NCBI GenBank assembly: GCA_947449535.1
Contig: CANFRP010000003.1
Span: forward strand, 36,780 to 100,779
DNA from: Actinomycetota bacterium
GTDB lineage: Bacteria > Actinomycetota > Actinomycetes > Nanopelagicales > Nanopelagicaceae
DNA: 64,000 nucleotides
Direction of reading: 5' to 3'
Part shown: piece after piece, positions 61,201 to 64,000 of the stretch
How positions within the stretch are numbered: position 1 is the first letter of the stretch
Layout: each line of letters starts with the position of its first letter
Made by a program: the position numbers and the translations under genes
Notes under the pieces: generated by a model
Database searches by the model: none
What the model saw: the letters and a program-made list of their open reading frames with translations, nothing else
What the model was told of the DNA's origin: nothing

Positions 61201-62346
61201 TTAAATCTCGATCGATTTATGTTGGTGCTCAGTTTCAGCAATGCCTGAGGAATAGCGCTCTTCGTAGCGGCCGTATTTCCAGACTATGACTGAGACCACC
61301 CAAGTAAGGAAGAACGAAGCCACGATGAAATAACCAATGCGATTGAGTTCAATGCTGGCAATGAATTTAAACGGTTGATATTTACCAATTGAAGTTTTGT
61401 CGGCAAGAACACCGACGAGCTCAATTGTTCCGATAAAGAGGGCAACAAAGATTGAGATAGAAGTCGTGGTGAGGTTGTAATAAATTTTACGAAGTGGAGA
61501 AGTGAAAGCCCAGGCATATGCCTTGGTCATGAAAATTCCATCGAGCGCATCCATCATTGACATTCCGGCAGCAAAAATGATGGGCAGCGCAATAATCGCA
61601 AGTGGCGGGAGAACACCACCAGCCGTGCCGATAGCGGCTGTAGCTGAAAGTCCCAACAGCCCAACTTCGGTGGCGGTATCAAAGCCCAGTCCGAAGAGAA
61701 CGCCGATGGGGTAGAGCTGCCACGAGTGATCGAAACCCTTTTTGAAAAATCCACGAAAAATTCGATTCATCAAGCCGCGTTCATTCAAGAGTTGTTGGAG
61801 ATGCTCGTGGGAGAACTTTCCGCTCTTGGCTTGTCGCCAAACTTTTATGATTCCGACCAGAATTACTAAGTTAAGTATGCCTACTAGATAAAGGAAGAAG
61901 GCAGAGACCGATGCACCAATAATTCCGCCGGTCTCGCCAAAATTTGATTGGAATTTTGCGGCGGATTTTGCAGCGAACGCGATTGCAACCGAGAGGCCGA
62001 GAACAATGGTGGAGTGACCTAGCGAGAAGAAAAGCCCCAGCGCTAATGGTTTCTTCTGTTTAGCAAGCATGAGTCGAGTTGTGTCATCGATGGCCGAAAT
62101 ATGGTCAGCATCGAAAGCGTGACGTAATCCAAATGAGTATGCGAGCGCACCGGCGCCGGCGTAGACCAAAGTGTGTTGACCGTTCATCAGGTTGTGGAAC
62201 TCGGGCTTGGAGTTATAGTGAATAAATAGTCCCCACCCAATGATGTGGAGCGCCACCACTGTGCCAATGACGCCAAAAAGCGCAGGCAATTCATCACGTT
62301 CAAAGCGCAAATGTTCGCGTAAACGTGGTTTGGTGGGTGAACTCAT
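61201..62346 (-). CDS. HoxN/HupN/NixA family nickel/cobalt transporter
   Basis: RHAFDADHISAIDDTTR, FSLGHSTIVLGLSVAIA, LFGLGFDTATEVGLLG signatures. Confidence 0.94.
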   Translation of the reverse strand: MSSPTKPRLREHLRFERDELPALFGVIGTVVALHIIGWGLFIHYNSKPEFHNLMNGQHTLVYAGAGALAYSFGLRHAFDADHISAIDDTTRLMLAKQKKPLALGLFFSLGHSTIVLGLSVAIAFAAKSAAKFQSNFGETGGIIGASVSAFFLYLVGILNLVILVGIIKVWRQAKSGKFSHEHLQQLLNERGLMNRIFRGFFKKGFDHSWQLYPIGVLFGLGFDTATEVGLLGLSATAAIGTAGGVLPPLAIIALPIIFAAGMSMMDALDGIFMTKAYAWAFTSPLRKIYYNLTTTSISIFVALFIGTIELVGVLADKTSIGKYQPFKFIASIELNRIGYFIVASFFLTWVVSVIVWKYGRYEERYSSGIAETEHQHKSIEI

Positions 62347-62358
62347 TGCCCGATCTTA

Positions 62359-62375
62359 TTGCAAATGATTTGCAA
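62359..62375. promoter_or_regulatory. Nur-like (nickel uptake regulator, Fur family) operator candidate
   Basis: TTGCAA-ATGAT-TTGCAA, palindrome TTGCAAAT-G-ATTTGCAA, 13 nt upstream of the Ni/Co transporter start codon. Confidence 0.8.
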
Positions 62376-62414
62376 AAGAGCTCCCAATACGCGGGTAGGC
62401 CTTATATTGCGACC

Positions 62415-62924
62415 ATGAAACGAATCACAGCTCTAGCCCTGATATTCACGAGCGTTCTTCTCGCGCCTGCTTCTGCACATACGACTTTGGTTTCAGCAAA
62501 TCCCGCTGTTGATTCCTTCATTGAGGCGTGGCCGACTTCGATCGAACTCACCTTTGCCGAACCGCTTGCAACTATTTCTGGTTCATCCTCAAATTTCATT
62601 ACGGTCACAAATGCGGCAGCCGTGGAATTGAATTATGGCGAGATTGTTTTCAACGGTGCAAAGGTAACCGTGCCCGTGAAGGAGAATTTAGTTCCAGGGC
62701 CCGTGCTGATCTCTTATCGAGTATCGGCCCAAGATGGGCATGTGGTGGAAGGCCAATACGCCATTAATTTTAGGACTTCCAAGCCTTCAGTCATCGCCCC
62801 CAAAGGGGGAGAGAATGGAAATGGCGAAGAGGGTGGCAATCTCCTTGTTACAGGAGCCACCACCCTCTTAGTTGTATTGGCTTTACTCTTTGGTATTTGG
62901 GCATACCGCAAGCGAAAGAGTTAG
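62415..62924 (+). CDS. CopC domain copper resistance protein with C-terminal TM anchor
   Basis: Signal peptide; AHTTLVSANPAVDSFIEAWPTSIELTFAEPL...VISYRVSAQDGHVVEGQYAINF. Confidence 0.92.
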   Translation: MKRITALALIFTSVLLAPASAHTTLVSANPAVDSFIEAWPTSIELTFAEPLATISGSSSNFITVTNAAAVELNYGEIVFNGAKVTVPVKENLVPGPVLISYRVSAQDGHVVEGQYAINFRTSKPSVIAPKGGENGNGEEGGNLLVTGATTLLVVLALLFGIWAYRKRKS

Positions 62925-64000
62925 TGAACAACAACTCCTTCAGATTCAGAAAGTGAACCCTTTCCGACATTGATCATTACGGCGGTTACTAGCGCTGCAA
63001 GGAATAAGAATCCCGCACCATAAATAAATGTGGTGGAGAAGCCGTGTACGGCTGCGACGGGATCTTGTGCAGTGACGTTATGGCTCTGGGCATATGCCGC
63101 AGTCGATGAGATTGCCAGGGTATTGAGCAGGGCAGCACCCAGTGATCCGCCGATCTGCTGGCTGGTATTAAGAACGGCACTTGCTACTCCAGCGTCGTGT
63201 TCACCTGAATTATGAAGTCCGGTGCTAGCCGTAGGAATAAAGAAGAGTGCGAGTCCTGACGACATCACAAGTAGCGCAGGCAAGATCGCCGTGGCGTATG
63301 AGGATGTCGGAGTGATCCGGGAAAGGTAGAGAAGTCCAATTCCGCCAGCGATGAGACCTGTGACGAGCAATGGGCGAGGACCAACCTTAGGTAGAAGTTG
63401 TGAAGCAACTCCCGCAAAGACAATCACACCAGCAGAGAATGGCAAGAATGCAAAGCCTGCGCGTAATGAGGAGTAACCCAAGAAAGTTTGCATATAGATA
63501 CTCAAGAACAAGAACATCGCAAAGAGACCAGTACCAACGAGGATCGATGAAATATATGAACCACCACGGTTGCGCTCAGTAAGAACACGAAGTGGCAATA
63601 ATGGATTCTTTACCTTTGATTCGAGGATTAAGAATGCGGCAAGGAAGATCGCTGCGAAAATAAAGTAGCGATATGTAGCTGAGTTACCCCAACCATGCCC
63701 TACTGCTTGGCTAAATCCATAGACAAGCGAAAGTAGGCCAAGGGTTACGGTGATTGCGCCAGGGATGTCATAGCTACGATCTCCGGGAGCTTTAGATTCG
63801 TGAATAAATGGGATTGCGAGAAGTACCGCGATAATCGCAATTGGAACGTTGACGCCCAAGCACCAACGCCAGTTGGCATATTCAGTGAGAGTTCCACCAA
63901 GAATCAGACCAATGGCAGCGCCACCTCCGGAAATTGCGCCATAGACACCAAATGCACGTGCCCGCTCTTTGGGAAGCGTGAATGTGACGTTGATGAGTGA
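62921..64000 (-). CDS. MFS drug exporter (EmrB/QacA, DHA2 type), 5' end beyond window
   Basis: Open frame continues past 63859 to window edge: ...RARAFGVYGAISGGGAAIGLILGGTLTEYANWRWCLGVNVPIAI... Confidence 0.93.
   Translation of the reverse strand, partial: SLINVTFTLPKERARAFGVYGAISGGGAAIGLILGGTLTEYANWRWCLGVNVPIAIIAVLLAIPFIHESKAPGDRSYDIPGAITVTLGLLSLVYGFSQAVGHGWGNSATYRYFIFAAIFLAAFLILESKVKNPLLPLRVLTERNRGGSYISSILVGTGLFAMFLFLSIYMQTFLGYSSLRAGFAFLPFSAGVIVFAGVASQLLPKVGPRPLLVTGLIAGGIGLLYLSRITPTSSYATAILPALLVMSSGLALFFIPTASTGLHNSGEHDAGVASAVLNTSQQIGGSLGAALLNTLAISSTAAYAQSHNVTAQDPVAAVHGFSTTFIYGAGFLFLAALVTAVMINVGKGSLSESEGVVVH

Follow-up and report, generated by a model that had tools for sequence, protein, structure and literature searches.

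The DNA analysed here is a 64-kb stretch, hereafter called the window, of the genome of a Nanopelagicales-type freshwater actinobacterium (G000; 1.455 Mb, 94% complete). It carries a permease gene and a divergent gene for a CopC-domain protein, separated by a 68-nt intergenic region that contains a 17-bp palindrome (Table 1). The permease scores 281 bits (E-value 1.4e-83, cut-off 27.7) with the NicO model PF03824 and 335.7, above the cut-off of 333.05, with TIGR00802 (HoxN/HupN/NixA subfamily). Its score with the nickel-specific NicT equivalog NF052500, 432.8 bits, is 17 short of the cut-off of 450, and its nickel specificity is therefore read from the operator and the Ni-superoxide dismutase (Ni-SOD) gene described below, which favour nickel rather than cobalt as the likely substrate. 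Relatives with 72–85% identity come mostly from uncultured actinobacterial MAGs, among them one assigned to Candidatus Nanopelagicaceae and one to Candidatus Nanopelagicales. The CopC-domain protein has, by inspection, a signal peptide and a C-terminal anchor. Convergent with copC, and overlapping its end by four bases, is an EmrB/DHA2-type MFS efflux gene (62921-64000, minus strand) that is truncated at the window edge.

Table 1. Features of the permease-copC locus (window coordinates)
Feature	Position	Strand	Evidence
NicO/NicT-family nickel permease, 381 aa	61201..62346	-	PF03824, TIGR00802 and NF052500 scores
Permease -10 hexamer TAAGAT; adjoins the box, leaderless layout	62353..62358	-	sequence; all 16 orthologues have TAnnnT here
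Nur box, predicted 17-bp palindromic operator, TTGCAAATGATTTGCAA	62359..62375	.	exact, unique in the window, conserved in orthologues
Candidate -10 hexamer TATATT of copC, 6 nt 5' of the ATG	62403..62408	+	sequence; inference
Divergent CopC-domain protein, 169 aa	62415..62924	+	PF04234, 1.1e-13

The palindrome TTGCAAATGATTTGCAA, TTGCAA-ATGAT-TTGCAA, matches the published consensus for Nur, tTGCaa-N5-ttGCAA (PMC3919588), at all 12 fixed positions. No other site in the window fits TTGCAA-N5-TTGCAA exactly, the next best having two mismatches; the perfect inverted repeat and the consensus fit described in an earlier note on this DNA thus both stand. On the permease side, reading leftwards, the box is followed by TAAGAT (62358-62353), by the six nucleotides CGGGCA and by the ATG at 62346, in agreement with the earlier placing of TAAGAT 6 nt before the start codon and of the box against the -10. 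The distances then reported were right to within one base: the gap is 12 nt, not 13, to the permease ATG, and 39 nt, not 40, to the copC ATG. The box, which adjoins the TAAGAT of a predicted NicO/NicT promoter, therefore has the position required of a Nur box, which overlaps or adjoins the promoter of a gene for nickel uptake or SOD.

Conservation of the box, proposed earlier as a check, was assessed in 16 orthologous permease promoters, that of the window included, by scoring the 120 nt 5' of each start for its best site. A score of at least 9/12 was obtained in 16/16 of these promoters, which are related and so are not independent samples, and a score of at least 10/12 in 13/16; among dinucleotide shuffles the same scores were reached in 10% and 1.5%, respectively. 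Mean pairwise identity was 81% within the box, a value inflated because the box was found through its resemblance to the consensus, and 70% and 75% in the six bases before and after it, which are less inflated, though anchoring on the box aligns them; farther out it was about 29% on either side. The sequence TAnnnT directly follows the box in all 16 promoters, with the start codon 5–6 nt later, and TGCAG directly precedes it in most orthologues. Such promoters would thus have a TTGCAG-like -35 and a -10 with the 17-bp operator as their spacer; the permease promoter of the window is without such a -35. In several genomes of Streptomyces, Kitasatospora and other actinobacteria, NicO genes are preceded by similar sites, so such control is probably not limited to freshwater lineages. 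One permease outside the lake lineage, that of Kineosporia sp. R_H_3 (L015, NZ_MWLL01000017.1), is 76% identical to the window's, is nearer to the lake lineage than most other actinobacterial ones and has the same box and leaderless layout; here the permease gene and its operator may possibly have been transferred together horizontally.

The window holds no regulator gene, as had been noted before. A search of the genome for a Nur/Fur homologue, also suggested then, detected one Fur-family protein, encoded on another contig (C9:31586-31996). Among solved structures it matches 3EYY, the Nur protein of S. coelicolor (ScNur), most closely (E-value 1.1e-42), with weaker matches to PerR (1.1e-16, the next best), to Fur proteins and to M. 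tuberculosis Zur (3.1e-12). By this similarity search the C9 protein appears to have its nearest relative in ScNur rather than in Fur, Zur or PerR. Since the genome is 94% complete, a Zur or a Fur may have been overlooked. Residues H33, H70, H72, H88, H90 and H126 of ScNur are kept in the C9 protein and in 28 aligned relatives, H72 providing no independent test in the latter because they were chosen with a motif that contains it. Histidines 70, 72 and 126 make up the proposed Ni-site of ScNur, and histidines 33, 86, 88 and 90 its four-His M-site. Positions 33, 88 and 90 of the M-site are conserved, and H86 is replaced by Asp in the C9 protein and by Glu, Leu or another residue in the relatives. 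A nickel site built from three histidines is described for Nur (PMC7055735). Directly downstream of the nur-like gene lies a YgfZ-family gene (TIGR03317, above cut-off); nur of S. coelicolor is likewise co-located with ygfZ (PMC4531530).

Some sites were also seen near nur itself. A degenerate Nur-box-like sequence, TTGCAAATAATTAGCCT (L009:2379-2395, minus strand), lies 5' of the small gene that precedes nur on C9. Four genomes, G021, G025 and G030 among them, have 9–10/12 sites at a similar place before the small gene upstream of nur, and G007 has an 11/12 site directly before nur. Most other genomes have no comparable site before nur, and these sites hint only faintly that nur might be autoregulated.

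Nickel enzymes such as Ni-SOD and urease had been named as places near which to look for further sites. Urease was not found in this genome, the family giving one weak match (G031). A Ni-SOD gene is present at G000:C25:16647-17006 (L180:8600-9016; TIGR02753, above cut-off), beside a divergent small gene (L180:8118-8498) whose product weakly resembles the Ni-SOD maturation protease, below cut-off. On C25, the sodN contig, a search for the strict palindrome, TGCRAATNATTYGCA, that allowed up to two mismatches found nothing. Ni-SOD was detected in 34/37 family genomes, the three without a match (G002, G017 and G024) being 58–72% complete. None of the 37 yielded an Fe/Mn-SOD in a search that was positive in 12/14 control genomes, and 61 family genomes searched for Cu/Zn-SOD gave no match. 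Ni-SOD is the sole SOD found in these family genomes. Since no sodF was found, the regulon appears to have only nickel uptake left, and perhaps nur.

The transporter gene varies across the family. Seven of the 37 genomes have the NicT type found in the window, 17 have a second NicO type (about 46% identical to the window's NicT type), seven have a CbiM/NikM-type gene, and one (G005) has a NicO gene that is cut by the contig end and preceded by the box. In five no transporter was detected, and four of these are 60–78% complete; none of the 37 has two types. A site is nevertheless kept before all three. At the second-type NicO loci it scores at least 9/12 in 14/14 of those scored and at least 10/12 in 13/14, lies at a greater distance from the start codon and at several loci precedes a Shine-Dalgarno-like stretch. 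The CbiM/NikM (ECF) loci of the family have the site in 7/7 cases, with 10–12 of 12 positions matched, and 6/7 repeat the NicT layout of box, -10, N6 and start; counting NicT and ECF genes together, nothing separates the operator from the -10 in 22/23. Across the 37 family genomes there are 22 occurrences of the strict palindrome TGCRAATNATTYGCA, of which 16 precede a NicT, NicO or CbiM/NikM transporter gene, and its reversed control occurs 0 times in 60 genomes. One genome, G034 (98% complete), has Ni-SOD and a Nur relative, and neither a NicO nor a CbiM/NikM gene was found in it; another nickel importer is therefore expected there.

A few further sites were considered as targets and set aside. 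The second exact match to the loose pattern TTGCAA-N5-TTGCAA in the genome (C21:10546) follows a tRNA terminator, with an azoreductase gene about 100 nt further on, and is without the AT-N-AT core; it was taken as chance. The second strict palindrome of the genome (L183:1501-1515; G000:C2:17327-17341) lies 107 nt upstream of cysK, within the 3' end of an ORF, and in G025 and G036 too a strict site is present, about 210 nt from a cysK start. The closest cysK orthologues (85–89% identity) have only 9/12 sites, elsewhere, and cysK was dropped because they do not clearly share the site. The strict site on G019:C78 is inside a coding sequence.

In all likelihood the palindrome is where Nur, a nickel-dependent repressor of the Fur family, binds, and as its operator it would control nickel uptake. 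The earlier note had read it in this way, and a Nur-like regulator, a conserved box and Ni-SOD have now all been found. Could it instead be a Zur operator, with the permease or copC in a zinc regulon? Actinobacterial Zur boxes have an ATGAT-like centre. In addition, the box can be written TGCAAAT-N-ATTTGCA, a 7-1-7 palindrome of the form reported for the Zur boxes of some bacteria (PMC6103462) and bound by a Fur-family dimer, and several relatives possess a second, distant Fur-family protein. However, the only Fur-family protein found in the genome (94% complete) is Nur-like, with no Zur or Zur-like paralogue detected; the arms of the box are TGC/GCA, as in the Nur consensus; and the family genes behind the strict site encode NicO and CbiM/NikM-type transporters, nickel-type targets that set this box apart from Zur boxes. 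Zinc control is accordingly improbable.

A different target for the box has about as little to recommend it. The start of copC lies 38–40 nt from the box in 5/6 loci with a divergent copC, a near-constant spacing that would suit an operator serving mainly copC, and hence copper handling, or one governing both divergent genes equally. Yet the even spacing may merely reflect two compact leaderless promoters placed back to back, and with respect to copC the box spans -56 to -40, which places it upstream of the core promoter. Moreover, the box is present at seven or more permease loci (L010, L011, L012, L014, L016, L019 and L020) with no copC match in the DNA examined, so the permease is the constant partner of the site, and it also precedes CbiM/NikM and second-type NicO genes. 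I therefore regard a role centred on copC, or divided evenly between the two genes, as unlikely. That the palindrome arose by chance and has no function is scarcely credible. Under a first-order Markov model 0.33 exact matches are expected genome-wide, and the match at C21:10546 does look random; against this, the expectation is 0.015 for the window and falls to 1.5e-5 for the 68 nt between the two genes, and the box is kept before orthologues whose outer flanks have diverged to the identity given above.

A Nur operator at this place suggests a simple mechanism. When nickel is ample, Ni2+-Nur would bind the 17-bp box, which occupies the place of the promoter spacer against the -10; bound Nur would block RNA polymerase and nickel import would be switched off. 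When nickel is scarce, Nur would release the box and the permease would be made, the imported nickel presumably serving mainly to supply Ni-SOD. Steric blocking is the natural reading because the operator abuts the -10. Binding, the sign of the regulation, the identity of the metal and the mode of blocking are all argued by analogy with Streptomyces (PMC3919588, PMC7055735).

In S. coelicolor, Ni2+-Nur represses sodF and nikABCDE. The present system shares with that regulon the consensus box, a close Nur relative with a ygfZ neighbour, a nickel-uptake target and Ni-SOD. It differs in that the target is a NicO/NicT permease rather than nikABCDE, in that no sodF was found, hence no inverse SOD switch, and in that a leaderless promoter has its -10 directly against the operator, the boxes of the family having an AT-N-AT core in common. 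Several transporter types are also predicted to be under one regulator in the case of NikR (PMC2667541). Here, as for NikR-controlled NiCoT and NikMNQO, different transporters come under one regulator, with nickel-dependent repression of uptake predicted. The regulator in the present case is of the Fur family, unlike that of the NikR systems, and the NikR operator sequence is unrelated to the Nur box.

The regulon type, Nur, is thus a known one, and the added interest lies in the apparent dependence of a sole SOD on nickel and in an operator that stays fixed under exchanged transporters. Searches of open-licence literature for nickel or SOD regulation in the freshwater Nanopelagicales group found no relevant earlier report. 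One proposal, towards which I lean slightly, is that the Nur regulon of these bacteria has shrunk to about one job, guarding nickel import for their only SOD, and that the operator, in most cases doubling as the spacer of a leaderless promoter, has remained fixed while the transporter was exchanged among the NicT, second NicO and CbiM/NikM ECF types. One operator and promoter layout under different transporters offers a test case for regulatory sites that outlive the genes they control, and the operator predicts the substrate of transporters otherwise annotated just as Ni/Co. Freshwater actinobacteria of the Nanopelagicales group are abundant in lakes. Their genomes appear to be nickel-dependent for superoxide defence, and a defined nickel operator would mark nickel limitation at the sequence level, in a form readable in lake metatranscriptomes.
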